Assembly (NCBI RefSeq): GCF_002159915.1
Contig: NZ_NFJP01000008.1
Span: 1-64,000, forward strand
Source: Gordonibacter sp. An230
Lineage (GTDB): Bacteria; Actinomycetota; Coriobacteriia; Coriobacteriales; Eggerthellaceae
DNA: 64,000 bases
Direction: 5' to 3'
Below, in pieces: positions 9,486 to 40,203 of this stretch. Numbering within the stretch: position 1 is the first letter of the stretch; each line of letters opens with the position of its first letter. The notes below the pieces were generated by a model. It worked only from the letters and a program-made list of their open reading frames with translations. It was not told the DNA's origin and searched no databases. The position numbers and the translations under genes were made by a program.

Positions 9486-10762
9486 GCCGTCGCTCCTTTC
9501 TCGGCGGCGGGCGCTTCCCCCGCCGGCTTCTCGACGTCGTTTCGGTACATCTTCTTCAACACGACAGCTCCAGCGATGATGCCGACGACTCCCACGATGC
9601 CCACCGGTATGGCTATCAGGCCCCAATTGCCGGTCAGGTCGACCACCGGCCCGCACACAACCGGTCCGAGCATTGCCGCGAGTCCCGAGAAGAAGGACAG
9701 CAAGCCCATGCTCACGGGAACTGCGTGAGGCGGCACGGCGTCGGGCGCGAGGTTGTGGGCCATGGGCCCGATAAGCTGCATTCCGGTGCCGCACAGCAAG
9801 ATGGCCACGATATCGAGAGGAATCGAGGGCAGGTTCCACATGAGCACGCCGCCCACGACGCTGAAGAAGGTGAGAACGAAGAAGATCTTGGGATGGTGCC
9901 TGTTCTCGATCTTGTTCAACGCGAACCCGAACGTAAGGCACAGGAAGATCATCCAGTAGGTGTGCACGGTCGAGACCGAATTCGCCTCAGCCGAGGGAAT
10001 GCCCAGCGTGCTCTGTAGAAACGTGGGATAGTAGGACATGTAGACGTTGAACGCGAAGATGGCCGCGAAGAACACGATGCAGATGCACATGCAGGCCGGG
10101 TTCTTCAAGCACTCGCCCCAACCGCTTTTCCTCTTCGGCGCGCCGCCTTTCTTTGCCGCGGCGTTGCTTCGGGCCTTGTCCTGGTCGGACGCCACCTTGC
10201 AGAACAGAAGGTTCAAGATGAAGGCGATCACAAGCAATGCGGCGGAGGCGAGCCAGATGGCGTGCCAGCCATACAGCGGGGTGAGGATGTTGCACAGGTT
10301 GAGCGCGAGCAGCGTTCCCATCGTGGACCAGATGGACCAGAGCGTCATGGGCAGCCCGCGTTTCTCGGCCGGGAACGCTTCAGTGATGATCACGGGCGCT
10401 ACGATGAACACGAACCCCACGCTGATGCCCTCGCAGAACCGCGTTACGGCGAGCGTGACGAAATCGGGCGCGAAGAAGCCCAAGATGTTGAAGACGAAGC
10501 ACCAGGCAAGTCCGAACAGCCACACCCTGCGCACGCCGAACTTGCTCACGATGGAGCCGCCGGGCAGCGCGGTGAGGAGGTTGGCCAGGGCGACGATGCT
10601 TATGAGCATGCCCGCCATGGTGACGTCGATGCCGTAATCGTCCTTGATGAAGGACATCGTGCCGGTCACCTTGAACTGCGAAACGGCGACGCAGATGGAG
10701 CCGATGACTGCGACGACGAACACGAGCCATCGATTCGGCAGGTTTGACTTGGTCTGTTCCAT
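9482..10762 (-). CDS. Major facilitator superfamily transporter
   Basis: 426 residues with about 12 predicted membrane helices. The loop after helix 2 is SKFGVRRVWLFG, and a charged central loop (KARSNAAAKKGGAPKRKSGW) separates the two halves. Start ATG with a strong AAAAAAGGAGAGGGG site. It lies between the arylsulfotransferase gene (113 bases upstream) and the thioredoxin-like gene (ATGA overlap), so it may move aryl sulfates, phenols or a related anion. The substrate is inference from position only; the sequence shows the superfamily, not the solute. Confidence 0.88.
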   Translation of the reverse strand: MEQTKSNLPNRWLVFVVAVIGSICVAVSQFKVTGTMSFIKDDYGIDVTMAGMLISIVALANLLTALPGGSIVSKFGVRRVWLFGLAWCFVFNILGFFAPDFVTLAVTRFCEGISVGFVFIVAPVIITEAFPAEKRGLPMTLWSIWSTMGTLLALNLCNILTPLYGWHAIWLASAALLVIAFILNLLFCKVASDQDKARSNAAAKKGGAPKRKSGWGECLKNPACMCICIVFFAAIFAFNVYMSYYPTFLQSTLGIPSAEANSVSTVHTYWMIFLCLTFGFALNKIENRHHPKIFFVLTFFSVVGGVLMWNLPSIPLDIVAILLCGTGMQLIGPMAHNLAPDAVPPHAVPVSMGLLSFFSGLAAMLGPVVCGPVVDLTGNWGLIAIPVGIVGVVGIIAGAVVLKKMYRNDVEKPAGEAPAAEKGATA

Positions 10763-10792
10763 GTTCCCCTCTCCTTTTTTCGGCTCGAAGAA

Positions 10793-10823
10793 AACCTGCG
10801 CGGCGGATCGCGCCGCGCAGGTT
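10793..10823 (-). terminator. Stem-loop between arylsulfotransferase and MFS genes
   Basis: Perfect 13-base arms (AACCTGCGCGGCG and complement) with a 5-base loop, followed on the minus strand by TTTTCTTC. It sits just before the MFS ribosome site, so it may be a partial terminator that lowers expression of the distal genes. Confidence 0.5.
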
Positions 10824-10837
10824 CACCGCCTTGCAGG

Positions 10838-10868
10838 GGCCGGCTGCCGGCCGAGCCGACAGCCGGCC
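10838..10868 (-). terminator. Second stem-loop directly after the arylsulfotransferase stop
   Basis: Nine-base arms GGCCGGCTG and CAGCCGGCC around a 13-base loop, 7 bases past the stop. Together with the next hairpin it gives tandem structures that may stabilise the upstream mRNA or attenuate readthrough. Confidence 0.4.
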
Positions 10869-10875
10869 TTTCGCA

Positions 10876-12300
10876 TTAGTTGAGCTTGTCCACGCAGTGG
10901 GCCATGTTGGCGTGGAAGCCCTTGGCGCCTTCGACCGTGACCTCGGCCTCGTCGTAGCCGGTCGCCTCGGCACCGGGCAGGCGGAACGTGGCATTGTCGG
11001 TGCGGGGGATGGCGACCTCCTCCGGCTTCTCAAGCTGGGGGATCCACTCGTACGGGATGCGGTAGGCTCGGTAGAGCAGGGCGGGGCCCACGTCGGGGTA
11101 GACGTATTCCCATACCAGCTCCTTCTCGGGCGTCATCTCCATGATGCGTCCCGTGGTGCCCTCGCAGATGAGCGTGTTTCCGTTCTCCAGGCGCTGTGCG
11201 TTGCTGGTGAGCGGCGAGTAGAAGTGGTGCGCTGTGAATGGGAAGCCTACGATCTGCGAGGTGTCGCTGCACTCCCAAACGACCTTGAGGGTTACCGGGT
11301 CGAACTCCACCACGCGCGATCCGTCGCGACGCTCGGCTTTCAGGCCTAGCTTCGACACTTGGGAAGGCGCGCCGTAGCCGGCCCATCCGCCGTTGTCGTA
11401 GACCATGATGTTGCCTGCGCCCGGCAATCCCTTGGGTATCATGTGGGTGTGATGCGGGCCGATGATGGCGCCGAGGATGCGGAGCTCTCGGGTTTTCGTG
11501 TAGTCGGGACCGATCTTCCAGACGATGTCGCCGGTTTCGTGGTCGACGATCCATAGCATGTTCGACTCGCGGGAGTCCATGATGATGTTGTCGGGCTTGA
11601 AGCGTTCGTCGCCCTCGTCGTACCAGTGGTTGGGGCCCAGGTAGCTGGCGCAGTTCACATGGAAAAGGTCTCCTTCGCCTTCGGCGCCCGCCTCTTGCGT
11701 GTTCGGATCGCGGAAGATCACGTTTTTCTGGGCTTCGGTGAAGTTGAAGTCGTTGATGTGGTCGAGCGTGCTCCACTCCCACAGTACGTTGCCCTCGCGG
11801 TCGACCTCGATCAGGCGGTCGTCCAGAAGAAGCTGCGGCGAGATCTTGGGCTTGCGCACGTTGTTGTGCGTGAGGATAAGCATCTTGTTGAAGTCGTTGG
11901 ACGATTCTTGTCCGGGAACGGGGTAACCTACCGGGTTGCCTTCGATCTGGTAGTCGTGGTGCGCGCGGGCGACCCACTGCTCCCCGGCATCACCGTCGTT
12001 GACCTGCTGATTGCGGTTGAACGTCCATTCGACGTTGCCGTCCCAGTCGACCTCGGTCACATCGGTCTGGTCTTGGTAGGCGGCTTGCGGGTCGCGCTCA
12101 CCCAAGTGCCCGAACAAGTGGCCTCCGGGGATCATCTTGCAAGGAAACCCTTGGAAGTCCTTCCAGAAACGCACGGCCTTACCGTTCATGTTGATGAGGA
12201 GAACGCCCTTGTTCGGTCCCGTGAACAGGGTGTAGCCGTTTTGGCACTTTTCAGGATCGTAGATCGTCGTCCCCGTCGGAAACACCGTTGGTCTTCCCAT
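10876..12300 (-). CDS. Aryl-sulfate sulfotransferase (arylsulfotransferase family)
   Basis: 474 residues from ATG at 12300, with GGGAAAGAGGG 5 bases upstream. Opens MGRPTVFPTGTTIYDPEKC, the typical start of anaerobe ASST-family proteins. Repeated blade-like segments (VDWDGNVEWTF, VDREGNVLWEWS, VDHETGDIVWKIG, FDPVTLKVVWE, MTPEKELVWEY) indicate a beta-propeller. Candidate catalytic histidines are in ARAHHDYQ, IGPHHTHMI and FTAHHFYS. The family transfers sulfate from one phenolic sulfate ester to another phenol without PAPS. No signal peptide is visible, unlike the periplasmic E. coli enzyme. The frame is open further upstream, but the promoter lies inside that stretch, which supports the 12300 start. 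First gene of the operon running to trxB. Confidence 0.87.
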   Translation of the reverse strand: MGRPTVFPTGTTIYDPEKCQNGYTLFTGPNKGVLLINMNGKAVRFWKDFQGFPCKMIPGGHLFGHLGERDPQAAYQDQTDVTEVDWDGNVEWTFNRNQQVNDGDAGEQWVARAHHDYQIEGNPVGYPVPGQESSNDFNKMLILTHNNVRKPKISPQLLLDDRLIEVDREGNVLWEWSTLDHINDFNFTEAQKNVIFRDPNTQEAGAEGEGDLFHVNCASYLGPNHWYDEGDERFKPDNIIMDSRESNMLWIVDHETGDIVWKIGPDYTKTRELRILGAIIGPHHTHMIPKGLPGAGNIMVYDNGGWAGYGAPSQVSKLGLKAERRDGSRVVEFDPVTLKVVWECSDTSQIVGFPFTAHHFYSPLTSNAQRLENGNTLICEGTTGRIMEMTPEKELVWEYVYPDVGPALLYRAYRIPYEWIPQLEKPEEVAIPRTDNATFRLPGAEATGYDEAEVTVEGAKGFHANMAHCVDKLN

Positions 12301-29312: not shown

Positions 29313-30191
29313 GTGAGTCAGGAAAACGAAACGGGCCGCATCGTCCCCATGCGGTTGCAGAAGTTTCTCGCACGTGCCGGCGCGGCGAGTCGACGGGGGT
29401 CGGAGAACCTTATGACGGCAGGCCGTGTCACCGTGAACGGGAACGTGGTCACCGAGCTTGGCAGCAAGGTCGATCCGCTCGTGGACGAAGTTGCCGTCGA
29501 CGGCAAAGTGGTGCGGCTTGCGGACGGACCCGTTACGATCATGCTGCACAAGCCTGCCGGCTACGTGACCACGATGTCCGATCCTCAAGGCCGTCCGACT
29601 GTGGCCGAACTCGTGCCCGTTTCCGCGCATCCGGGGCTGTTCCCGGTAGGTCGGCTCGACGCGGACACGACGGGGCTGCTTTTGTTCTCCACCGACGGGG
29701 AGCTGGGTAACGGCCTTCTGCATCCGAGGCGCCATGTGGTCAAGCGCTATCTTGCTTGCGTGGAGGGACGGCCTTCGGAGCGCGAGCTCGAGCTGCTGCG
29801 TCAAGGAGTCGAGCTCGACGACGGTCCTTCCCAGCCTGCAGAAGCGAGCGTGCTTGAAGGCGCGGACGCGCGTCGCGCCATGCGGGTGCTCGACGTTCCC
29901 CCTGTCGTCGCGCCCAACGCTTCGCGCGAGCGCGCCGATGCGCTCCGTAGGCGCGCTCGCGAGCGCGCCTACGTGCGCATCTGCGTGCACGAAGGCAGGA
30001 AACGACAGGTGAAGCGCATGCTCGCAGCCGTCGGGCATCCGGTGGTGGCGCTTCACCGAGATTCTTTCGGACCGCTTGATCTGGGGGATCTCCCTCGAGG
30101 CGCGTGGAGGGCGCTCTCGGAGCGAGAGGTGGCCGCGCTGCATGCGGCCACCTCTCGCGCGAACCTTGACGAGAGGGGGGCTCTCCCCTAG
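29313..30191 (+). CDS. rluB: 23S rRNA pseudouridine synthase (RluB/RsuA family)
   Basis: 292 residues from GTG at 29313 with TTGGAGGA upstream. An N-terminal S4 RNA-binding domain (MRLQKFLARAGAASRRGSENLMTAGRVTVNGNVV) is followed by the catalytic domain with Asp in VGRLDADTTGLLLFSTDGEL, and CVHEGRKRQVKRMLAAVGHPVVALHR near the end. RluB (U2605 of 23S rRNA) is the usual actinobacterial member, but RsuA-type specificity cannot be excluded. Its stop overlaps the end of the convergent phosphonate operon by 4 bases. Confidence 0.92.
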   Translation: MSQENETGRIVPMRLQKFLARAGAASRRGSENLMTAGRVTVNGNVVTELGSKVDPLVDEVAVDGKVVRLADGPVTIMLHKPAGYVTTMSDPQGRPTVAELVPVSAHPGLFPVGRLDADTTGLLLFSTDGELGNGLLHPRRHVVKRYLACVEGRPSERELELLRQGVELDDGPSQPAEASVLEGADARRAMRVLDVPPVVAPNASRERADALRRRARERAYVRICVHEGRKRQVKRMLAAVGHPVVALHRDSFGPLDLGDLPRGAWRALSEREVAALHAATSRANLDERGALP

Positions 30192-32275
30192 GCCTGGTCG
30201 CTGTCGCCCGCCGGAGCCCAGGATCGCCCTGTGGCCTGCCAGCTCTTCGGGTCGTCAGCGTCGCCGACGACCGTGTACTCCAAGATGATCTCCGTTTCTT
30301 CGCGGACGATCATGGGGTACGATTTCCTGTCGACGGAGGCCGGACGCTCTCCGAACAGAGGCATTCCCCGTTGGTCGCCGTTTCCTCCTGCAGCTTCGAG
30401 GATCGTTGCCGAGATGTCCTGATGGGAGACGGGGTCGGACGACGTTGCAAGGGGGGAGTGCTCGCTGCCGGCTGTTGCCGGTTTTGCGAGCAGAATGGGA
30501 ACGGCGGGGTTGGGGCGCTCGTTCGGAGGAAGGACGTCGCTCACGAGCCCGTGATCGGCCGTGACGATGATGGTGGTGCTGTCGTACGCCCCGAGCTCTT
30601 TCAGCTGGCGCAGGTACTCGGAGACGATCTCGAGGGAGCCGAGGGCCTGCGTTGGCTCGTCCGTCTCGTCGTCCGTCCTTTGAGCGGCTTTGTCGAGGTG
30701 GTAGGGCCAATGGGCTCCGTGCAGATGAATGAAGCGGAACGACTTCTTTTCGGCGTCGAGGGAAAGGCCCGTTTCCTGCAGGGTCCGGTAGTAGGCGTAG
30801 TCGTCCGTCAGGTACGGCCCCGTGCTGCCGTGCAAGACGGAGCGGTTCACCTCGTCCGCATACGTTTGCTCGTAAAGCGAGCTTTTGAACGCGAGGGGCA
30901 ATACGCGGTAGAGCCCCAGGTTGGTAAGGGAGCGCACGGTTCCCGCCCAGTCGACGGACACCTCCTGCTCGTTTACGGGTCGGAGGTTGTCCGCTTTTGA
31001 GCCGATGCTCTCCAGGTGGGTTTGGAGGGAAGCGGAGTACACGCCTGTGGAGAACCCTTGCTCTTGAAGCTCGTCGAGCAGGTTTCGTTGCGCGAAGTTC
31101 TCGCTGATCTGCTGATACGACCATGACTGACTGTCGAGGTCGAGAAAGGGCCGTCCCATAAGGAGGCTCGGGATGGCGGTGCGCGTATGGCTTGCGAGCT
31201 GCGAGACGTTGTCGAAGCGCGTGAAGCCGGAGAATTCGGCCAAGGTTTCGGGCGCGAGGGCTTGGTCGTATGCGTTGTCGAGGATGTTGTCGTCGAACAT
31301 GTCGAGCACGAACACCACGATGTCGCCTTCGCCCGAGAGCGTGTAGAGGCCGTCGGTGGTCAGGTAAGGCCTTTCGGACGAGCTGCCAGCCTCGGGAAGG
31401 GAGACGAGGGTGCCCGCCAAGCCCACCGTCTGCGCGAGAACGAGCGCGAAGGCGGTGAGGGTGGTGATGGGCGCGAATTTGGAGCGGAATCGCAAGAAGA
31501 AGAGCAGCAGCAGGGCGAATGGGGCAAGGTAGAGAGACGCGTCGAATACAAAGAGCAACCACGGATAATCCGAGAAGTCCATCTCTCCCCTTGAGGGAAA
31601 GGCGAGAAATCCCAATTGGGACATGGCGAAGTACGACGACAGGATCGCGCTGGACACGATGGCGAGCGCGATCCAATAGGCCTTTCCCCGCAGAAGCGAG
31701 AGGGCGAGCGAGAGGGCGACGGACACGGTCAGGGCGAAAGCGGCCAGCACGGGCAGCGCGTCTGTCGGAAGGAAAAGGAATTCGTTAGGGTTCTTGGCGA
31801 CGATCTCGAGCGGCGTCGAGACGCACACGGTGAGCGCTGCGAGCAAGAGGGGGGCGAGCATGCCGAGAAAACGACCGCGCCAGGGGATTGGCTGCAGCGG
31901 AACCGGGGACCGGAGCCGTTTTGCGTCCTTTCGGGCGTCTTGGTCGGCTTGCAGGAGCGTTTCGTTCCCTTCCGGATCGTCGCGGTCGACGAAGCGCACC
32001 GGAGGCTCGGCTTGCTTGCGGGTCGCCTCGCTCAGTCCGAGCACTCCCAGAAGCCGCTTGCGCGTTGCGCGCCATGCCGTGCCGACGACGGCGGAAAGGG
32101 CGACGGCGGCCCCTGCGACGGCTTGCACCGTGTAGCTTGCGACCGACGGGTCGATGTAGGCGTATGCCGGCTGAGTCCATGCGAGGGAAAGCGCAGAGGA
32201 CGCGAGGAGGAGAAAGACCGCATCCACCGCGAGTACGGCAAGCGGGAGGCGCTGCTGGTTTCTGACCGTCCTCAT
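30188..32275 (-). CDS. LTA-synthase-like sulfatase-fold membrane protein (second cistron)
   Basis: 695 residues from ATG at 32275, whose upstream G-run can serve as a ribosome site. It begins with a hydrophobic segment ending PAYA, then YIDPSVASYTVQAVAG, a motif often seen at the head of surface-polymer proteins. Membrane helices follow at about 138-155, 175-220 and 240-290. The extracellular alkaline-phosphatase/sulfatase fold starts at DIVVFVLDMFDD (Asp325), has the nucleophile-type motif SHTRTAIPSLLMG (Thr366) and later TADHG. Such enzymes (LtaS, EptA-like) move phospho-head-groups outside the membrane. In this sequence it is in frame with the upstream gene, so it may be made as a fusion. 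Confidence 0.7.
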   Translation of the reverse strand: MRTVRNQQRLPLAVLAVDAVFLLLASSALSLAWTQPAYAYIDPSVASYTVQAVAGAAVALSAVVGTAWRATRKRLLGVLGLSEATRKQAEPPVRFVDRDDPEGNETLLQADQDARKDAKRLRSPVPLQPIPWRGRFLGMLAPLLLAALTVCVSTPLEIVAKNPNEFLFLPTDALPVLAAFALTVSVALSLALSLLRGKAYWIALAIVSSAILSSYFAMSQLGFLAFPSRGEMDFSDYPWLLFVFDASLYLAPFALLLLFFLRFRSKFAPITTLTAFALVLAQTVGLAGTLVSLPEAGSSSERPYLTTDGLYTLSGEGDIVVFVLDMFDDNILDNAYDQALAPETLAEFSGFTRFDNVSQLASHTRTAIPSLLMGRPFLDLDSQSWSYQQISENFAQRNLLDELQEQGFSTGVYSASLQTHLESIGSKADNLRPVNEQEVSVDWAGTVRSLTNLGLYRVLPLAFKSSLYEQTYADEVNRSVLHGSTGPYLTDDYAYYRTLQETGLSLDAEKKSFRFIHLHGAHWPYHLDKAAQRTDDETDEPTQALGSLEIVSEYLRQLKELGAYDSTTIIVTADHGLVSDVLPPNERPNPAVPILLAKPATAGSEHSPLATSSDPVSHQDISATILEAAGGNGDQRGMPLFGERPASVDRKSYPMIVREETEIILEYTVVGDADDPKSWQATGRSWAPAGDSDQA

Positions 32276-34192
32276 GCCGCACCCCCCCCCCTTCGGCGCA
32301 TGATCCTGCTTGGACAGGATGCGGTCGAGGACGTATGTTCCGGCGGCTTCTCCTCCCCGTCTTCCGTTGAAGAAGAAGTCGGCGCGTCTCGCTTCGATCC
32401 TTTTGGCCCACGATTCCGCGTCGTCGAGCATGCCTAGGGCGACGGCTCCTGCGGTTCCGACGTCGTCGAGGGAAAGGACCCTTCCCGTCTCCTTCCTTAG
32501 GCTGATGTCGGTCGGGATGATCCCGTAGTCTTCCCAGCGAGGGTTTTTCGCCTTCATGGGCGTGTCGATGAAGAGGGAGGGCCTGAGGGTTGAGAAGGAG
32601 AATTCGTAGGCTATGGAGGACCAGTCGGTGACGAGCAGGTCCGCCTCCCCCAACCCTTGATCGTCCGCCTTGAACCCGTCTTCGAACTCGAGATGCTCGG
32701 GGAAACGCTCTCGGCATTGCGCGACGAGGGCGTCCCAGCGCGCGGCGTTTCTTTTGGTGTATTCGGGATGGGGCCGGACGATCGTGCGAAAGCCCGCTTC
32801 GATCAGCGACTCGACGACTTCGACGGCGCACAGATCCAGGATGCAGTCGTCTTGCCAGGAGGGGGCGAGGAGAGCGGTCGGACGGCGGTTCGGCGACGAC
32901 TTCGCGCCTCCGAGGGCTGCGCATGATTCGATTTGGCGATCAATCAGATCGTATCCGCAGGCGACGAGCTCTTTCTTCGGAAGTTCGCGCAGCTCCTCCT
33001 CGCGTCTCAGCTCCTCGATCTGATGAGGTCCGACGCATAGCACGGCGTCGTAATGGTCGAACGATCCCTCCGCCGACACCATGTGCATGCTCGTTGCGTG
33101 GTGCGGGAAAAGGATGTACTCGGCGTCCTTGCGGACAAGGGAGCGTTTGAGGTGATGCTTTCCAAGCTCGTAGAGCGTGAGGGCCACCACGTCCGCGTCG
33201 AGCTTCATCATGAGCGTTATGAGCTTCCTCTCGCCTATATAGTAGGGGATGACGCGGGGGCGCTGCTTCGCAAGCTCGAATACGCGGTCATCGGGGTCGC
33301 TCGTGATGTAGTGGATGCGGACGGTCGAATTGTCGAGGAGCCATTCGATCGCCCCCTGGAAGTACTTGTAGAACCCGTCGCGCTCCGAGTAGAACACGAC
33401 GTGCTTTCCCTCCACGCGGAAGAACCTCTCGTAATCGGCCTTTTCCCTGCGTGCAAGTTCGAGGCTTCTCTTGCGGGAATCGGAGGTCCTTCCCACCGAT
33501 TCCAACAGGGCGATCTCCTTCTTGCTTTCCTCGAGGTCGTCGCGGTCGATGGTTTTTCGAGGATCCATCACGATGTTGCAAAGCATTTGGACGACGATGG
33601 AAAGGAGGTTCGAGCAAATCCAGTAGAACGCAAGCCCTGCGGGGACGAAGATGCCGAGCGCGAAGGAGATGGCGACAGACGAGCCGTTGGCGACGAGCTG
33701 GCTGCGCTTTCCCTGCTCTCGTTGGAGGGGGTTGATGCGGTTCTGGGAGTATCCGAGCGCGACCGCCGAGAGCGCGGCGAGGGGCGGCATGATCCATGAT
33801 CCTCCGCCATCGCGCATGGGTATGGACCCCCAGAATCCCAGATCGTCTTGGGCGGCGATGGAGTTCACGGCGCCCACTGCGACGAGCAGGACGGCGATCT
33901 GCGCGGCGAACGGCGCCAAGGAGAGGAGAGGGTGGTAGTGGTTTTGCCTGTACAGCTCGAGCTGCTTTTCCGAAATGGCCTCGCCATCCCCGAAATGGCG
34001 AGCCTTGATGCGATTGATCTGAGGCATGAGGCGCACCATGGCGATGCTGTTCGCATGGCTCCACAAGGAGAGGGGGAACAGGATGATTTTGGCGGCGACG
34101 GCGAGGGCGAGCAGAACCACCCACCATACGCCGACAAGATCGTAACAGGCCCGCATGGCGGCAGCGAGCGCTTCGGATAGAGGAAAGCCCAT
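30188..34192 (-). CDS. YidC-like/TagF-like protein read through into an LTA-synthase-like domain
   Basis: As sequenced, one open frame of 1334 residues from ATG at 34192 (AAAGGAG 6 bases upstream). Residues ~15-225 are a YidC/Oxa1 insertase-like membrane domain (VWWVVLLALAVAAKIILFPLS, SIAMVRLMPQINRIKARH, LAFYWICSNLLSIVVQM). Residues ~270-615 are a CDP-glycerol glycerophosphotransferase (TagB/TagF) fold (VVFYSERDGFYKY, APSWQDDCILDL, VRPHPEYTKRN, TDWSSIAYEFSFSTLRPSLF). Residues from 640 are the sulfatase-fold protein listed separately. The join at residue ~635 is encoded by ten G. With nine G the first protein would stop at a TGA overlapping the next ATG, so this may be two genes. Last part of the phosphonate operon; probably attaches activated phosphonate to a surface polymer. 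Confidence 0.7.
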   Translation of the reverse strand: MGFPLSEALAAAMRACYDLVGVWWVVLLALAVAAKIILFPLSLWSHANSIAMVRLMPQINRIKARHFGDGEAISEKQLELYRQNHYHPLLSLAPFAAQIAVLLVAVGAVNSIAAQDDLGFWGSIPMRDGGGSWIMPPLAALSAVALGYSQNRINPLQREQGKRSQLVANGSSVAISFALGIFVPAGLAFYWICSNLLSIVVQMLCNIVMDPRKTIDRDDLEESKKEIALLESVGRTSDSRKRSLELARREKADYERFFRVEGKHVVFYSERDGFYKYFQGAIEWLLDNSTVRIHYITSDPDDRVFELAKQRPRVIPYYIGERKLITLMMKLDADVVALTLYELGKHHLKRSLVRKDAEYILFPHHATSMHMVSAEGSFDHYDAVLCVGPHQIEELRREEELRELPKKELVACGYDLIDRQIESCAALGGAKSSPNRRPTALLAPSWQDDCILDLCAVEVVESLIEAGFRTIVRPHPEYTKRNAARWDALVAQCRERFPEHLEFEDGFKADDQGLGEADLLVTDWSSIAYEFSFSTLRPSLFIDTPMKAKNPRWEDYGIIPTDISLRKETGRVLSLDDVGTAGAVALGMLDDAESWAKRIEARRADFFFNGRRGGEAAGTYVLDRILSKQDHAPKGGGCGMRTVRNQQRLPLAVLAVDAVFLLLASSALSLAWTQPAYAYIDPSVASYTVQAVAGAAVALSAVVGTAWRATRKRLLGVLGLSEATRKQAEPPVRFVDRDDPEGNETLLQADQDARKDAKRLRSPVPLQPIPWRGRFLGMLAPLLLAALTVCVSTPLEIVAKNPNEFLFLPTDALPVLAAFALTVSVALSLALSLLRGKAYWIALAIVSSAILSSYFAMSQLGFLAFPSRGEMDFSDYPWLLFVFDASLYLAPFALLLLFFLRFRSKFAPITTLTAFALVLAQTVGLAGTLVSLPEAGSSSERPYLTTDGLYTLSGEGDIVVFVLDMFDDNILDNAYDQALAPETLAEFSGFTRFDNVSQLASHTRTAIPSLLMGRPFLDLDSQSWSYQQISENFAQRNLLDELQEQGFSTGVYSASLQTHLESIGSKADNLRPVNEQEVSVDWAGTVRSLTNLGLYRVLPLAFKSSLYEQTYADEVNRSVLHGSTGPYLTDDYAYYRTLQETGLSLDAEKKSFRFIHLHGAHWPYHLDKAAQRTDDETDEPTQALGSLEIVSEYLRQLKELGAYDSTTIIVTADHGLVSDVLPPNERPNPAVPILLAKPATAGSEHSPLATSSDPVSHQDISATILEAAGGNGDQRGMPLFGERPASVDRKSYPMIVREETEIILEYTVVGDADDPKSWQATGRSWAPAGDSDQA
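32282..32291. repeat. Ten-base C/G homopolymer at a gene junction
   Basis: Ten C on the plus strand (ten G in the coding sense), 6 bases before the second-cistron ATG. Ten G gives KGGGCGMR and a fusion. Nine G gives a TGA that overlaps the ATG as ATGA. Eleven G leads into a long out-of-frame extension. Confidence 0.85.
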
Positions 34193-34295
34193 GAGTTGCT
34201 CCTTTAGGGACGAACGGGGGTCGATCGGTCTTGCGTTTCGGTACGGTCTTGGGAAGCGTGCGCGGACGCTCGTCCCGCGCGGTCGGTCTCTTCGG

Positions 34296-36206
34296 TCACG
34301 CTTCTTTCCCTTGCGGCTCTTCGACGTGCTCCGCAATCGGTTCTCGCGCGATGCCGCGGTACACCTCCGCCACGTCTTCCGGAGAAAGCTCGACCGGGAA
34401 GTTCGCCAGACGCTCCAGGTTGACCGTCCCCGTCAGATGTGCCACGTCGTCGTTCGACAGGGTGGTCGAGCGAGCCGTTCCCGCAAGTTCGACGATGGAC
34501 TCGAACGCCTCGAGTCCCGACGACGGACCGCGCGACGTCTCCTGTGCGAGCGACCCCTCTATTTCGGCGAGCTTCTCCGCAAGCTCCGGATCGCTCGAGG
34601 CGCGTTTCGCGAGGATGCGCCAACATCCGGGCATGCACATGGCGACCGCATGGCCGTGGGGCAGCCCCTTGAGCGTGGTCAGTCCATAGCTCAGGGCATG
34701 GGGTGCGGTCGTGGTGGTGAGGTTGATGGCCTTTCCGGCCAAGTTGGAGGCCGTCATGATCGAGCGCGCCGCCGCGGCATCTCCTTCGAGGTAAGATCCT
34801 GCATCGCGCGCGATGCGGCGCATCGCTTCCGCGGAGAGCGGCCTGCTCGCGTCGCATGATCGCACGGACCAGTGAGACTCGATCGCCTGGCAAAGAGCAT
34901 CGAGCAGCGTGCAGCGCCTCTGGTAATCGGGAAGCGTCGATAGCAGACGGGCGTCGAGAACGGCGGCGTCGGGAAGGAGCCGCTCGGAGCTGATCGAGCG
35001 CTTCGTGCCATTCACGTACACGGTGGCGAAGCGGGTCGACTCGCTTCCCGTTCCGGCGGTGGTGGGCACGGCTATGTGCGGGACGTCGATGCGAGGGGAG
35101 GGGAGGTCGGGATGCGTCCCGAGCTCGAGGGGGTCGGGCGCGCCCAGGAGCGCTTTCACGCATTTCGCCAGATCGATGGCACTGCCTCCGCCAATGGACA
35201 CCAGGCCGTCGCATCGCTGCGCTCGAAAGGACCGAAAGGCCTCGACGGCTTGATCGTAGGTGGGGTTCGGGCTGAAACCGTCGAACGCCGCCGCATGATC
35301 CAAGTCGTCCAAATAGGCGCGGATCGGTCCGGATGACCTTGCGCGCGGGCCGCATACGACCAACGGGCGCCCGATGCCGTGGAGGGAGAGGAGCTCCTTC
35401 CATGTTCGCTCGCCGCTTTCGTCGGCATCGCGCAGGATGAGCCGGCAGCCGGGGTCGAGGGCCTCGTAGACGGGCTGCTGCTCGTAATCGAACAGCTTGA
35501 CGCAGGTTTCGGCGTGAAGGAGGTCCTCCGGGGTGTCCACCTCTCCCACGAAGCAGCCCTCATACGATAGCGCTTCGACGTTCATCAGGGGAAAAACCTT
35601 GTTCGCGGCCTCTTCCGCGTAAACGTCGAGGGCACCGCGCTGCACGAACCTCTCCACCTCGTCGAGCCAGAGTCCGAGAGAGCGTTCCGAAAGCCGGTAA
35701 AACGGTTGGAAGGCGTAGCAGTCAGGCCCCGATGCGTCGACGGAGACGTGCTCGATGCGCCCGTTCAGGACCCGTGCTTTGAAGTCCTTTCGAGGCGGCA
35801 GAGCCGCGCGGTTCACGGCTCCGAGCGATTCGAAGGGGGATAGGAGCGCCCTGCGCGCGAACGAGCGATCGAACACGAGGTCGCCGTGGAGCAGGAGAAC
35901 GTCGTTTCCCCTCAGCAGGTTTCGGGCAAGCCAGAAGGAGTACAAGTAGTTGGTGTCTGCGTAGCGGTCATTCGAAACGAAGGAGAACGAGCATCCTCGC
36001 GCTTGAAACGGCGTTGCCGCCTCGCGTATCTGGTCGGAAAAGGGGCCGGTGGTGACCACGAAGTCCCTGACTCCCAGATCGGAGAGGATGCGCACCTGCC
36101 GTGCGAATATGCTCTCGCCGTTGATCGCCGCCATGCACTTCGGTCGCTTCGCGGCGATGCTTCCCAGGCGGCTTCCGAGGCCCGAGTTGAATATCAGGGC
36201 TTTCAT
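34296..36206 (-). CDS. Nucleotidyltransferase fused to iron-containing alcohol dehydrogenase
   Basis: 636 residues from ATG at 36206, overlapping the upstream stop by 4 bases (ATGA). Residues 1-~235 are an NTP-transferase fold (FNSGLGSRLGSIAAKRPKCMAAINGES, then LLLHGDLVFD), like LicC/PntC-type cytidylyltransferases. Residues ~255-636 are a group III Fe-alcohol dehydrogenase (SIGGGSAIDLAKCVKAL, PTTAGTGSESTRFATVY, ALCQAIESHWS, GLPHGHAVAMCMP with the metal histidines). In a PEP mutase/decarboxylase operon the dehydrogenase most likely reduces phosphonoacetaldehyde to 2-hydroxyethylphosphonate, and the transferase most likely makes its CMP derivative. The fusion itself argues the two steps are consecutive. 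Confidence 0.85.
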   Translation of the reverse strand: MKALIFNSGLGSRLGSIAAKRPKCMAAINGESIFARQVRILSDLGVRDFVVTTGPFSDQIREAATPFQARGCSFSFVSNDRYADTNYLYSFWLARNLLRGNDVLLLHGDLVFDRSFARRALLSPFESLGAVNRAALPPRKDFKARVLNGRIEHVSVDASGPDCYAFQPFYRLSERSLGLWLDEVERFVQRGALDVYAEEAANKVFPLMNVEALSYEGCFVGEVDTPEDLLHAETCVKLFDYEQQPVYEALDPGCRLILRDADESGERTWKELLSLHGIGRPLVVCGPRARSSGPIRAYLDDLDHAAAFDGFSPNPTYDQAVEAFRSFRAQRCDGLVSIGGGSAIDLAKCVKALLGAPDPLELGTHPDLPSPRIDVPHIAVPTTAGTGSESTRFATVYVNGTKRSISSERLLPDAAVLDARLLSTLPDYQRRCTLLDALCQAIESHWSVRSCDASRPLSAEAMRRIARDAGSYLEGDAAAARSIMTASNLAGKAINLTTTTAPHALSYGLTTLKGLPHGHAVAMCMPGCWRILAKRASSDPELAEKLAEIEGSLAQETSRGPSSGLEAFESIVELAGTARSTTLSNDDVAHLTGTVNLERLANFPVELSPEDVAEVYRGIAREPIAEHVEEPQGKEA

Positions 36207-37336
36207 GCTCGGGACCCCGCCCCTTCCGTCAGCATGTCGATCATTGCGAGCTTGTTGTCCTTCGGGGCGATGTCCGGGCACCCCAGATCGCGCCTCGACC
36301 CTTGGCGCGTGCGGACGACCAGGGCCTTCCTTCCCGGTTCGCGCATCGTCTCGAAAGCCTCTCTCGCGTCGAGCTCCGCGGAGACGCTGGTCGTTTCGAA
36401 CCCGCATGCGCGCAGGATGCCAGCGATGTCGACGCTCCGTCCCGCGGTCGGGAACCCGCCGACGCTTTCGTGGGCGCCGTTGTCGTTGAGGACGTATTTG
36501 AGCGTGTCGGGGGCCATCGCGCCCGCCACGGCGAGCGAGCCCATGTGCATGAGGAAACTGCCGTCCCCGTCGACGCACCACACCGTGCGATCGGAGCCGA
36601 GCGCCATGCCGAGGGCGATGGAGCAGGTGTGGCCCATTCCGCCCACCGTGAGGAAATCGCGCGCGTGCCCCTGCCCTCGCCTCTCGCGCGCTTCGAACAG
36701 CTCGCGGGACGTCTTCCCAGTCGTGGCCACCACGATGTCGTCGCTCCCGATGCTGTCCAAGAGCAGCTCGAGCATCGCTTCGCGGGTGAGGGGCGCGGGC
36801 TCGACGGAAGGGGGCAAGGGGGAGGAGGAGAGCGCGCCTTTGCGCACCACGAGGGCGACGGGTCGGCTTTCGATCCGCATGCGCGCTTCAAGGGAGGAGA
36901 TCTGCTCGCGCCAACGATCGATGTCGAGCACCTCGTACGGAACGCCCATCGCGTCGAGGAGCGCCAGGGTCGCTTTTCCCTGCTTGAGGTGCTGGGGCTC
37001 GTCCGGAACACCAGGCTCTCCGCGCCATCCGATTACGAGGAGCATGGGGATCGAGTACACGTCGGGATCGGCGAGCGACAAAAGCGGATTCACGGCGTTC
37101 CCCTCGCCTGAATTCTGCATGTACACCACCGCGGCGCGTCCGGTGGCCACGTGCCACCCGCATGCCATGGCGACGGCGTTGCCTTCGTTTGCCGCGATGA
37201 CGTGGCGGTTCGAAGGCACGTTTGCCAGCAAGTGCGAGCATAGGTCTTTGAGCAGGGAGTCGGGAACCCCGCAGAAGAACTCGAGGCCCCTTTGCTCGAG
37301 GGCCTCGCAAAACGCGCTCGGATGGATCTCGGTCAT
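36203..37336 (-). CDS. Phosphonopyruvate decarboxylase
   Basis: Thiamine-diphosphate enzyme converting phosphonopyruvate to phosphonoacetaldehyde, the irreversible step that pulls PEP mutase forward. 377 residues from ATG at 37336 (ATGA overlap with the PEP mutase stop). Opens EIHPSAFCEALEQRGLEFFCGVPDSLLKDLC, the family signature; catalytic Glu51 in IAANEGNAVAMACG; MQNSGEGNAVNPLLSL; ThDP-binding VDGDGSFLMHMGSLAVAG with LNDNGAHESVGG. The two halves of the usual ThDP enzyme are both present and full length. Confidence 0.93.
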   Translation of the reverse strand: MTEIHPSAFCEALEQRGLEFFCGVPDSLLKDLCSHLLANVPSNRHVIAANEGNAVAMACGWHVATGRAAVVYMQNSGEGNAVNPLLSLADPDVYSIPMLLVIGWRGEPGVPDEPQHLKQGKATLALLDAMGVPYEVLDIDRWREQISSLEARMRIESRPVALVVRKGALSSSPLPPSVEPAPLTREAMLELLLDSIGSDDIVVATTGKTSRELFEARERRGQGHARDFLTVGGMGHTCSIALGMALGSDRTVWCVDGDGSFLMHMGSLAVAGAMAPDTLKYVLNDNGAHESVGGFPTAGRSVDIAGILRACGFETTSVSAELDAREAFETMREPGRKALVVRTRQGSRRDLGCPDIAPKDNKLAMIDMLTEGAGSRA

Positions 37337-38646
37337 GGCAGCTCCTTGGGCACGAGGGTCAAAACGTCGTGTATCGGAAGGCACAGCGAGTCGGCCTCTT
37401 TGCTCCGTCCGTGCTCCAGGATGCTGTCGGCGGTGTTCCGCATGGCCATGTACGCGGCGCGCAGAAGATGGTTCGCGTGGATGACCACGCTCGCGCCCGC
37501 GCCGAAAAGCTCATCGTCGGTGATATGGTTGTAGGAGGTGGGGACCAAGACGACGGGGACCTCGGGCCACTTCGATCGAAACGCGCTTAGGAACTCGAGT
37601 ATCTCCTTGCCGTCCTTTTCCTTCGAGTGGATCATGATTCCGTCCGCATGCCCTTCTTCGAGGTAGATCCGGGCTCGCATCATGGCGTCGTCAAGGCCCG
37701 CCTTCGCGATGAACGACTCGATCCGGGCGAATATCATGAAGTCGCGGGTTCTTTGGGCCCTCTTTCCGGCGAGGATCTTGGCGGCGAAGGCGTGAGGATC
37801 GTCTTGGAGCTGCGGCACCTGGGTGCCGAACAGGGAATTCTGCTTGAGCCCCGTCTTGTCTTCGATGATCACGGCCGACACGCCGATGCGCTCGAGCGTG
37901 CGGACGTTGTGGGCGAAATGCTCGACGCGCCCGCCCGTGTCCCCATCGAGGATGATGGGCTTGGTGGTCACCTCCATGATCTCCGTGATCGTCGCGATGC
38001 GGCTGGTGAAGTCGACGAGCTCGATGTCGGGCTTGCCTTTGAAGGCGGAGTCGCACAGCGAGGACACCCACATGGCGTCGAACTGCCGCACCGCGCCTGA
38101 CTCGGGGTCCGAGAACCGGGCGGCCTCCACGATGAGGCCGGAAAGCCCGTTGGAGGCCTCGAGCGCGCGCAAGCGGGGTCTCGTCGCGAGCAGCTTCCGC
38201 AGCGCTCCCCTGCGCGCGTCCGGGGAGGCGTATGCCGCCCGCAGGTCGCTCTCGAGGCCGCTCATGGAGACGCCGCGCGTGTAAGGGACCTCCACCAGCT
38301 TTCCGCCCCATTCGCCAAGCGTGTCGACGACTTCTTTGCGCACGGAGCTTTGGATGCCGGTTCTCCAGTCGTCGCCGTGCACGACGAAGTCGGGTCTGAC
38401 CTCGAGGAGGTTTTCCCGATAGGAAAGGGTTTTTTGAAGCATGGCCCGCGAGACGCCTTTAAGGTTCGCGTACATGCGCAGTCGCGAGTCCTCGTCGAGG
38501 ATCGGCGGGCGCTTGTAGGAGGCTATCGTCTCGTCGGAGAGCACCCCGACGATCACCGTGCCAAGCTGGCAGGCTCTTTCCATGACGTTGAGGATGCCTT
38601 CGTGAACGATGTCGGATGATACTGACAGGTAGACGGTTTTGTCCAT
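37333..38646 (-). CDS. pepM: Phosphoenolpyruvate mutase with N-terminal cytidylyltransferase-like domain
   Basis: 437 residues. Residues 150-437 are PEP mutase of the isocitrate-lyase superfamily. They carry the diagnostic EDKTGLKQNSLF at 262-273 and DGDTGG at 234-239, which separate it from other members. It isomerises PEP to phosphonopyruvate, creating the C-P bond. Residues 1-140 are a TagD-like cytidylyltransferase fold (VYLSVSSDIVHEGILNVMERACQLG, VVHGDDWRTG), but the HxGH motif reads HEGI (15-18), so its nucleotidyl activity may be lost. First gene of the operon; followed by the decarboxylase with an ATGA overlap. Confidence 0.95.
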   Translation of the reverse strand: MDKTVYLSVSSDIVHEGILNVMERACQLGTVIVGVLSDETIASYKRPPILDEDSRLRMYANLKGVSRAMLQKTLSYRENLLEVRPDFVVHGDDWRTGIQSSVRKEVVDTLGEWGGKLVEVPYTRGVSMSGLESDLRAAYASPDARRGALRKLLATRPRLRALEASNGLSGLIVEAARFSDPESGAVRQFDAMWVSSLCDSAFKGKPDIELVDFTSRIATITEIMEVTTKPIILDGDTGGRVEHFAHNVRTLERIGVSAVIIEDKTGLKQNSLFGTQVPQLQDDPHAFAAKILAGKRAQRTRDFMIFARIESFIAKAGLDDAMMRARIYLEEGHADGIMIHSKEKDGKEILEFLSAFRSKWPEVPVVLVPTSYNHITDDELFGAGASVVIHANHLLRAAYMAMRNTADSILEHGRSKEADSLCLPIHDVLTLVPKELP

Positions 38647-38696
38647 GGTCGGTCTTTCTGTAGGAAGATATATAGAGTGCCCCGGATGAGGGCGCG

Positions 38697-38728
38697 TGAA
38701 ATCGCCTCCGTCGTAGGAGGCGATTTCA
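38697..38728 (-). promoter_or_regulatory. Inverted repeat in the pepM leader
   Basis: Perfect 13-base arms (TGAAATCGCCTCC and complement) around a 6-base loop, about 50 bases before pepM. It could be an attenuator, a terminator-like barrier or a repressor site; no U-tract of note. Confidence 0.55.
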
Positions 38729-38737
38729 TATGCGATT

Positions 38738-38749
38738 TGTAATATTACA
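38738..38749 (-). promoter_or_regulatory. AT-rich palindrome in the pepM promoter region
   Basis: TGTAATATTACA, a perfect 12-base palindrome within the only strongly AT-rich segment nearby. It overlaps plausible -10 sequences for the minus strand, so it may be an operator of the phosphonate operon. Confidence 0.45.
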
Positions 38750-39027
38750 GTATTTTTGCACAGGGGGAGGGTATGAATTTTCTGGACCTAATCGAGGGAA
38801 AGCTCTCTCCTCAAAGGGCGGGAGGGGGGGCTCGCGTGTGACCGGCCCGCAAAGCCGCCTGCATCCTTGGCGGCGAATGATCCGGGAATCCAACTCCGTT
38901 TGCTGAAAAGACGTGCTTGCTGCACGCCGTCTCCTTCGGAGGAGATTAATGGTAGAATGCCGTTGAGTTCGCTTGGCCCCGTTCGGGGCGAAAGATCGGC
39001 GCGACATACAAGGAGGAACCTGATCGA

Positions 39028-40203
39028 ATGGCACAAGGGCAAGCTGCGCAAAGAGGCGAATCGGGCTTCGGGCGCATCGCCGTTGTGGGCTTCGGCCTGA
39101 TAGGCGCGTCGTTTGCCGCCGCCGTCCACGAGGCGCATCCAGGTGCGGAGGTGCTTGCCGTCGACGTGGACGCGCGCACGCGCGACGAGGCGCTTGAGCG
39201 CAAGTGGGCGAGCGCGGCCTCCCATCCCGACGACGCGGCTTTCCGGGAGTTCGTCGAGGAGGGCTGCGACCTCGTGGTGCTCGCTGCGCCGGTGGACGCC
39301 GTCGAAGGACATCTCGAGCGCCTCGCGTCATGGAACTTTCGCGGCATCGTCACCGACACGGCGTCCACGAAAAAGCGCATCTGCGGGCTGGCGGCGCGGA
39401 CGCTTCCGCATCCTGAGAACTTCGTGCCGGGACATCCCATGGCCGGTTCTGAGAGAAACGGCATCGACGGGGCGCGGCCCGACTTGTTCAAAGGCGCGCA
39501 CTGGATACTCTGTCCGGACGCGGAAACGCCGGCCGAGCATTTCGCGCGCATGCACGAGTTCGTCACCTCTCTCGGCGCCCGCGTCGTGGTTCTGCCGCGC
39601 GAAGAGCACGATGCAGCGGTGGCCGTGGTGAGTCACGTCCCGCATTTCGTAGCCTCTTCGCTCGTTCAGCTTGCCAACCGTCACGCTGACGACAGGCAGG
39701 CGCTCATGCGCCTGGCCGCCGGGGGCTTCAAGGACGCCACGCGCATCGCCGCCGGCTCTCCGGAGCTGTGGTGCGGCATCGCGTTCGACAACAAAGATGC
39801 GCTTTCGGCGGGCCTCGACGAGATGCGGGGCATCATCGCGTCGTTCTCCGACGCGCTCGCCTCGGGGGACCGTTCGCGGCTCACTGCTCTTCTGTCCGAG
39901 GCGGCCGAGGCGCGCCGGGCTCTGCCCGCCGCATGGGTGCCCTCGACCGAGCGCTTGGTCGAGGTGCGGATCCCCATGGAGGATCGTCCCGGCGTGGTGG
40001 CCGAGGTCACTACGTACGCAAGCTCGGCCGGTTGCAATATCCAATCCATCGAAATCGATCACGTCACTGAGGACAGCGCCGTGCTCAGCCTCGTGCTCAC
40101 CGACGAGGGCGACGTAGGGCAGCTGTCGTCGCGGCTCATCGACGCGGGGTTCTCGGTGTCGTTCAGTCCTTTGACGGCAAAGGAGCACGCCCATGTCGCA
40201 TGA
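39028..40203 (+). CDS. tyrA: Prephenate dehydrogenase with ACT domain
   Basis: Tyrosine synthesis: NAD(P)-dependent oxidative decarboxylation of prephenate. 391 residues; AAGGAGG lies 11 bases before the ATG. Rossmann motif VVGFGLIGASFAAAV near 19; VTDTASTKKRI; PENFVPGHPMAGSERNGIDGARPDLFKGAHWIL holds the substrate residues; SHVPHFVASSLVQLA. The C-terminal ~80 residues (EVRIPMEDRPGVVAEVTTYASSAGCNIQSIEI) are an ACT domain, probably for tyrosine feedback. Overlaps aroA by 11 bases. First gene of the operon. Confidence 0.94.
   Translation: MAQGQAAQRGESGFGRIAVVGFGLIGASFAAAVHEAHPGAEVLAVDVDARTRDEALERKWASAASHPDDAAFREFVEEGCDLVVLAAPVDAVEGHLERLASWNFRGIVTDTASTKKRICGLAARTLPHPENFVPGHPMAGSERNGIDGARPDLFKGAHWILCPDAETPAEHFARMHEFVTSLGARVVVLPREEHDAAVAVVSHVPHFVASSLVQLANRHADDRQALMRLAAGGFKDATRIAAGSPELWCGIAFDNKDALSAGLDEMRGIIASFSDALASGDRSRLTALLSEAAEARRALPAAWVPSTERLVEVRIPMEDRPGVVAEVTTYASSAGCNIQSIEIDHVTEDSAVLSLVLTDEGDVGQLSSRLIDAGFSVSFSPLTAKEHAHVA

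Follow-up and report, generated by a model that had tools for sequence, protein, structure and literature searches.

We analysed a window of 64,000 nucleotides from Gordonibacter sp. An230 (contig NZ_NFJP01000008.1, positions 1 to 64,000). On its minus strand lies a four-gene operon (30188-38646) that we read, with a probability of roughly 0.7, as a compact cassette for placing 2-hydroxyethylphosphonate (HEP) on the cell surface. From its upstream end it comprises pepM, ppd, a gene fusing a PntC-like cytidylyltransferase to an iron-dependent alcohol dehydrogenase (Fe-ADH, or ADH), and a gene for a YidC-TagF-LtaS-like protein, here called YTF, which would be the head-group machine of the cassette. 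PepM would convert phosphoenolpyruvate (PEP) to phosphonopyruvate, Ppd would decarboxylate this to phosphonoacetaldehyde, and the fusion would act twice, its Fe-ADH domain reducing the aldehyde to HEP and its PntC-like domain joining HEP to CMP in place of a decayed Fom1-type domain. The route from PEP to CMP-HEP is assigned on the strength of the protein families and of residue patterns. The phosphonate would then be moved onto a teichoic-acid-like polymer by a CMP-releasing transferase, for which the TagF-like domain of YTF is the likeliest candidate (a LicD from another part of the genome being the alternative), and the YidC and LtaS-like parts of YTF would handle membrane passage or attachment. 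The predicted synthesis and activation of HEP are well supported and its proposed delivery to the surface is supported; the final transfer onto the polymer is put forward less firmly than CMP-HEP synthesis.

The operon itself, which a sequence-only reading of this DNA had proposed, is borne out by gene order and by family matches with E values down to 1.5e-121, and because the gene set also recurs in other genomes, the arrangement goes beyond chance. ATGA overlaps, read directly in the sequence, join pepM to ppd and ppd to the fusion gene; the proposed coupling holds at these two junctions. YTF, which starts 103 nt after the fusion gene in the same direction, is not coupled in this way. All genes and domains given below lie on the minus strand. 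The first gene, pepM (37333..38646), encodes a 437-residue PEP mutase with an N-terminal Fom1-type cytidylyltransferase-like (CyT) domain; it scores 364.4 bits against TIGR02320 (cut-off 319.55), also matches PF13714, and carries EDKTGLKQNS, which fits the EDKxxxxxNS motif. The product of ppd (36203..37336), a thiamine diphosphate (ThDP) enzyme, scores 405.8 bits against the phosphonopyruvate decarboxylase model TIGR03297 (cut-off 312.5). Both assignments had been made from the letters alone and stand, as does a third, the NTP-transferase/Fe-ADH fusion: the 636-residue product of 34296..36206, scanned minus its first 10 residues, exceeds the cut-offs of NTP_transf_3 (PF12804) and of the Fe-ADH families PF00465 and PF25137. 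Its AlphaFold model has a pLDDT of 86.2 and a pTM of 0.82.

Which phosphonate would the fusion activate? The PntC-like domain (residues 1-246, 35469..36206) scores 29.6 bits against PF12804 (cut-off 27), and its best solved profile matches are LicC (1jyk, 8e-20) and the PntC of Treponema denticola (Tde-PntC; 6pd1, 7e-16). In Tde-PntC, Glu104 and Glu196 are placed near the amine of aminoethylphosphonate (AEP) (Rice et al. 2019, PMC6697681). Glu196 is kept in the window, and alignments put His107 (35886..35888) at the Glu104 position. The acidic residue that would mark an AEP-specific PntC is thus replaced by His, both here and in the other ADH-linked PntCs: the position is His in 16 of the 16 aligned (the window and loci L019-L022 and L074-L084), and also in L132, as against Glu in the four aminotransferase-linked PntCs of L014-L017. 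This switch separates the ADH-linked from the aminotransferase-linked enzymes and supports HEP as the likely substrate. AEP was considered as the product and rejected, given the His for Glu and the lack of any aminotransferase in the operon, which the sequence-only reading had rightly pointed out (no genome-wide search for an AEP transaminase was made).

The Fe-ADH domain (34347..35429) is a predicted phosphonoacetaldehyde reductase, its best NCBIfam model being TIGR03405 (Phn_Fe-ADH), at a score below cut-off that is weighed later. The top Foldseek match of the fusion's AlphaFold model is the sulfoacetaldehyde reductase 6jko, whose substrate is a close analogue of phosphonoacetaldehyde; in the VIA ranking many Fe-ADHs are nearly equal and 6jko stands at rank 14, and the alignment covers ADH residues 231-624 only. 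In the argolaphos pathway, the step from phosphonoacetaldehyde to HEP is attributed to an Fe-dependent ADH (PMC8976061). That the window's fusion would supply CMP-HEP, by reduction in one domain and cytidylylation in the other, is well supported, and the PEP to CMP-HEP route claimed earlier is upheld by gene order, by families, by the reappearance of PepM, Ppd, PntC and ADH as a set in other phyla, and by the His/Glu switch.

The CyT domain of PepM (residues 1-140, 38227..38646) is probably inactive. It matches PF01467 with 36 bits (cut-off 21), and its best solved match (E 1e-42 over 133 aligned residues) is 5x3d, labelled phosphoenolpyruvate phosphomutase, which we take to be the Fom1 N-terminal domain. 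Homology to Fom1 is therefore clear, but the HxGH motif expected of a Fom1-type HEP cytidylyltransferase is not kept: HPGH in Fom1 has become HEGI (38593..38604), and GISSTRL has become GVSMSGL. Among 20 PepM-attached CyT domains (window, L014-L023, L075, L078-L084 and genome G356; two are near-identical), the second His of HxGH is missing in four, those of the window, L021, L022 and L023. Three of the four have a PntC-ADH fusion, and in L023 an Fe-ADH is accompanied by a stand-alone Fom1-type domain whose motifs are intact, so the loss of this His accompanies a substitute enzyme. We conclude that the PepM-fused domain is probably dead and its role taken by the PntC-like domain, and the decayed domain cautions against calling every PF01467 domain fused to Ppm active. 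Two candidate explanations were set aside: the PepM-fused cytidylyltransferase as the CMP-HEP maker of the window, since its HxGH and ISST motifs are lost, and a single loss of the HxGH His, since the tree groups window, L021 and L022 at only 85/66 and the placement of L023 is unsure.

The HEP module recurs well beyond the window. Among 296 genomes of the window's class, PepM exceeds its cut-off in 11 (of 12 with a match); within the family, 4 of 138 genomes carry a PntC-ADH fusion. Fusions are also present in metagenome-assembled genomes (MAGs) named Ruminococcus (L074, L083), Clostridia (L075), Lachnospiraceae (L076) and Cryobacterium (L078). PntC and ADH are neighbouring genes in a Bacilli MAG (L077) and a Lachnospiraceae genome (L079), and a PntC-CyT-PepM triple fusion lies beside ADH and Ppd in the MAGs L080, L081, L082 and L084; in L082 the ADH gene (9926-11023) is in two open reading frames (ORFs), through assembly error or decay. 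PepM was not found in the available stretches of L074 and L077, nor Ppd in that of L079. Outside the window, ADH-linked PntC clusters thus come from its own class (L019-L022, L132), while L074-L084 belong to Bacillota, a Melainabacteria MAG and Cryobacterium. With the window these make 17 loci, a count that leaves out L023 (PepM, Fe-ADH and stand-alone CyT, no PntC).

A CMP-releasing transferase was found in 10 of the 17 loci by local HMMs built from few seeds and Pfam scans of chosen ORFs, which may miss some. TagF/Glyphos_transf proteins occur in the window, L019 (two near the module), L020 (one, plus an ADH/partial-Glyphos/MptE-like fusion), L022 (one, low-scoring) and L084 (a fragment); LicD occurs in L021, L077 and L080, and both kinds in L132. 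The transferase of L076 is a CDP-alcohol phosphatidyltransferase. In L132 (G356, of the window's family) a single chain of ~1228 aa joins NTP_transf_3, Fe-ADH and two LicD domains. This PntC-ADH-LicD-LicD fusion is evidence of a classic kind, and we therefore expect CMP-HEP to go to such transferases. The gene is adjoined by a ~1314-aa frame (L132:2863-6804), itself next to NeuB, that combines a decayed PntC-ADH copy, a Glyphos_transf domain (292 bits) and an MptE-like domain; start codons at this locus are unsettled, and decay was judged by lost motifs.

The last gene of the window's operon encodes YTF in one ORF (30188..34192; 1334 aa, ATG at 34192, stop at 30188), preceded by the ribosome-binding site AAAGGAG (34199..34205). 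The sequence-only reading had described TagF-like and LTA-synthase-like proteins (LTA, lipoteichoic acid) at this place; both parts are present, but as one uninterrupted chain that begins with a YidC/Oxa1 domain, which that reading missed along with the CyT domain of PepM. The YidC/Oxa1 insertase domain (33575..34126) scores 83.2 bits against PF02096 (cut-off 35) in the protein scan and 88.4 bits at genome level, and 67.4 bits against TIGR03592 (yidC_oxa1_cterm), under the cut-off of 84.3; the genome also has a second, stand-alone YidC of 163 bits. The ~390 residues between the YidC and sulfatase domains form a TagF-like GT-B domain (32273..33442). Its model (pLDDT 71, 3 sequences) has TagF chains at all of ranks 1-7 (best 3l7j, E 1.2e-11), and profile matches include Cps3D (8qoy, 5e-4) and TarL (0.015); PF04464 (Glyphos_transf) gives 18.1 bits, under its cut-off of 22.1, which the relatives in L086 (35.9) and L088 (51.6) pass. 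The remainder (30191..32272) is a membrane and sulfatase/LTA-synthase-like part with 45.5 bits against PF00884 (cut-off 25) and LTA synthase (2w5r/2w5q, ~1e-8) as nearest solved profile match; the Thr of its TR motif is conserved, but the LtaS alignment of that region scores below zero. At least 90% of 22 YidC-TagF sequences share motifs such as HH.TS, PSWQ, VRPHPEY and TDWS, and at least 85% of 26 LtaS-like parts share motifs such as IH..G.H.P and TADHG; we take HH, RPHP and TDWS to be TagF motifs. Where YidC has its groove arginine, the family conserves a Lys. In a tree of the family the window's YTF is on a long branch, without placement.

The distribution of YTF points away from phosphonates as its usual substrate. 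Of the 296 genomes, 50 encode YTF-type proteins (E below ~1e-100). The usual arrangement is a YidC-TagF gene accompanied by an LtaS-like gene nearby; the window and five others (G236, G156, G056, G044, G181) have a single ORF. Another 72 of the 122 genomes matching at 1e-8 have weak, YidC-like or lone TagF-like matches. Of the 50 YTF genomes 47 have a LicC-LicA fusion (LicCA, E <= 1e-60), and of the remaining 246 genomes 56 do (Fisher 4e-22; 103 of 296 overall); in 7 of 20 YTF loci fetched a LicCA-type gene lies within the stretch. The three YTF genomes without LicCA include two with an NTP_transf-PLP fusion (PLP, pyridoxal phosphate) near YTF, and G258, where nothing was seen in the stretch fetched; in L059 (4388-6202, by Pfam scan) and L119 (5066-6919, by homology), NTP_transf_3 is fused to a class I/II aminotransferase-type PLP domain. 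Since 47 of 50 YTF genomes encode the choline-activating LicC-LicA enzyme, YTF is not phosphonate-specific. We read it as a candidate machine for CMP- or CDP-activated head groups, with choline-type (LicC-LicA) activation in relatives; HEP activation would be plugged in beside it.

TagD exceeds its cut-off in 4 of the 50 YTF genomes and in none of the other 46; in four of these 46 (G044, G056, G068 and G271) TIGR01518 matches at 115-124 bits, under its cut-off. In the window genome no TagD exceeds the cut-off, and the CyT domain of PepM, at 24.5 bits, gives the sole match. IspD-like matches there comprise one above 100 bits, one partial at 47.6 bits within a frame of 551 aa that we guess to be GlmU-like, and one of 23.2 bits. 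TagD or TarI supplying YTF was accordingly rejected for this genome, which has no TagD over cut-off and one strong IspD only. The searches for IspD and LicD, and one for LicCA, covered 45, 47 and 47 of the 296 genomes, with 40 of the 47 being YTF genomes. Seven of these 40 have LicCA and no LicD match, so that YTF could plausibly serve as a head-group transferase itself. YTF is also found in 6 of 11 PepM genomes as against 44 of 285 others (p 0.004).

A number of observations weigh against the proposed cassette. On the side of synthesis, TIGR03405 is the best NCBIfam model for the fusion, yet at 155.2 bits against a cut-off of 423.7, and the Fe-ADH domain has Gln at the place of one His that we take to be a usual metal ligand. 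The same PntC His occurs in L085-L089, where no PepM was found in the stretches available, so HEP is not proven by this His. Most PntC-bearing loci keep HxGH, and absence of the CyT His thus follows PntC only loosely. On the side of delivery, no terminal transferase was found in 7 of the 17 loci (L074, a 4-kb contig, L075, L078, L079, L081, L082 and L083). Among the 11 PepM genomes of the class, PepM was seen next to YTF only in the window; the other five genomes with both have them apart or on different contigs (G264 has its PepM on a contig of 7 kb, which shows the gene's surroundings incompletely). Furthermore, 44 of the 50 YTF genomes lack PepM, and the Fisher tests ignore shared ancestry. 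Finally, CMP-HEP might be the substrate of a LicD encoded far from the operon, with YTF devoted to choline.

This last possibility is the best of the alternatives, though it remains clearly the less probable: one of three LicD-like proteins would move CMP-HEP onto a polysaccharide, with YTF a mere neighbour serving choline. In G356 PntC-ADH and LicD form one chain, L021, L077 and L080 have LicD close to the module, the window genome has one LicCA and three LicD matches, and YTF tracks LicCA. However, it is YTF, not LicD, that follows the window's module at 103 nt, seven of the 40 YTF genomes searched have LicCA without a LicD match, and Glyphos_transf proteins are near the module in L019, L020, L022 and L132. 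A separate lic-type cluster in the window genome (G000:C2:119064-125996) contains a LicC-LicA fusion and two LicD matches.

An alternative that we consider unlikely is that YTF polymerises CMP-HEP into poly(hydroxyethylphosphonate), a teichoic acid with a carbon-phosphorus backbone. TagF-family enzymes polymerise CDP-alcohols, TagF is the best match of the domain model, HEP has the free hydroxyl that chain growth requires, and the window genome has neither TagD over cut-off nor a second strong IspD/TarI-like match. The absence of PepM from 44 of the 50 YTF genomes speaks against it. Moreover, CDP-choline, the inferred LicCA product, cannot form a chain, so head-group polymerisation is an unlikely role for YTF in relatives. 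More improbable still is that the product of the cassette is a phosphonolipid or a small phosphonate that the cell secretes. In L076 (2994-11848) an HEP module whose PepM has no CyT domain lies beside genes for a CDP-alcohol phosphatidyltransferase, an acyltransferase, an AMP-binding protein and a B12-radical SAM protein, a possible phosphonolipid pathway, but such genes are absent from the window operon, where YTF is the sole further gene. We regard it as very improbable that the fusion uses a non-phosphonate alcohol while PepM and Ppd feed something else, for despite the low TIGR03405 score and the His-type PntCs in the PepM-less stretches L085-L089, pepM, ppd and the fusion are ATGA-coupled and the PepM, Ppd, PntC and ADH genes recur together in several phyla.

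We therefore keep the HEP cassette with YTF as head-group machine, with a narrower claim about the polymer. The earlier proposal of transfer to a teichoic-acid-like surface polymer holds as far as delivery is concerned, backed by the PntC-ADH-LicD-LicD fusion and by TagF or LicD near the clusters. Because the YTF profile follows choline activation and not phosphonates, a dedicated HEP "teichoic acid" is just one of several readings, and HEP decoration, beside or in place of phosphocholine, is as likely or likelier. More speculatively, and against the odds as we see them, YTF could be a new kind of surface-polymer machine, in which the YidC fold passes a head-group-bearing polymer across the membrane, the TagF and LtaS-like parts act on the membrane's two sides, and any CMP- or CDP-activated head group that a LicC-family enzyme supplies (choline, a PLP-derived amine or HEP) is accepted; the polymer of the window would then bear C-P linkages.

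One Phascolarctobacterium contig (L088) has neighbouring genes for a His-type PntC, an OPA-type transporter, TagF and a YidC protein. According to the family scan, the gene after the His-type PntC encodes an OPA-family (PgtP/GlpT-like) transporter in L085, L086 and L088, and in L089 a similar-looking protein takes this place; the PntCs of L085-L089 may activate imported phosphate or phosphonate.

The cassette is an accessory segment of 8.9 kb (30153..39038, no strand), since it is missing from both same-genus genomes compared by blastn (L114/G208 and L115/G251), where its flanks nearly touch (113 and 143 bp apart). It was either gained in the window species or lost in these two relatives, in neither of which PepM, YTF, LicD or LicCA had a match at the thresholds used. 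By eye, the flanking genes are rluB-like (converging, to 30191) and tyrA-like (diverging, from 39028). Scans for promoters and terminators gave signals no better than in shuffled sequence. About 50 bp upstream of the pepM start lies a perfect 13-bp inverted repeat with a 6-nt loop (38697-38728), in a 121-nt stretch with a folding z of -5.0 against shuffles; it could be an attenuator or a stray terminator. Three other candidates were rejected: a defence function (no PADLOC match for three proteins tried), plasmid carriage (one weak match, to the sulfatase part only) and phage carriage (52 phage records match the fusion, and the five best listed cover the ADH part only).

If the HEP cassette is real, gut-type anaerobes bear surface polymers with hydrolysis-resistant C-P groups made by four genes, and the cassette is the HEP counterpart of the AEP tailoring pathway, whose later steps have been termed enigmatic (Rice et al. 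2019, PMC6697681). The PntC-ADH-LicD-LicD fusion offers a direct, testable link from phosphonate activation to transferase. YTF gives a handle on the making of choline-type surface polymers in the class, and poses the question of how a YidC domain might take part in polymer export.

The nearest known system is the phosphonyl tailoring (Pnt) pathway, with the PntC of T. denticola, Olsenella uli and Atopobium rimae (PMC6697681). In common with the window, this pathway is described as having PEP mutase, decarboxylase and a LicC-like CTP enzyme, with LicD-like or glycosyl transferases nearby and the phosphonate sent to the cell surface. It makes AEP via an aminotransferase, whereas the window has a reductase fused to PntC, which therefore implies HEP; the words "dehydrogenase" and "TagF" occur nowhere in the text of Rice et al. 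2019 (PMC6697681). The same paper states that the CyT domain of Fom1 makes CMP-HEP. Fom1, from fosfomycin biosynthesis, resembles the window in having a PF01467 domain ahead of PEP mutase and CMP-HEP as activated species, but HxGH and ISST are not kept in the window, and cytidylylation is assigned to another enzyme family. The phosphonoglycans of Glycomyces and Stackebrandtia (Yu et al. 2014), like our proposal, place phosphonate on an actinobacterial polysaccharide, in different actinobacteria. They reportedly contain HEP, and we know of no YidC-TagF-LtaS protein in these systems (no search for one was made). The pneumococcal-type Lic pathway of choline teichoic acids shares LicC-family activation and LicD transferases, and LicCA is the partner of YTF in relatives, but the window operon has an HEP module in place of choline and adds the YidC-TagF-LtaS chain. 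TagF/TarL polymerases and Cps3D share the TagF-type GT-B fold with YTF, whose family conserves the HH, RPHP and TDWS motifs; unlike them, YTF joins its TagF part to YidC and, in the window, also to an enzyme resembling LtaS. We found no description of PntC-ADH(-LicD) fusions or YidC-TagF(-LtaS) proteins in the open-licence literature, an absence of little weight. Thus, PntC-type activation and surface phosphonates are already known, and what appears to be new here is the enzyme fusions and the link to a choline-type YidC-TagF-LtaS machine.

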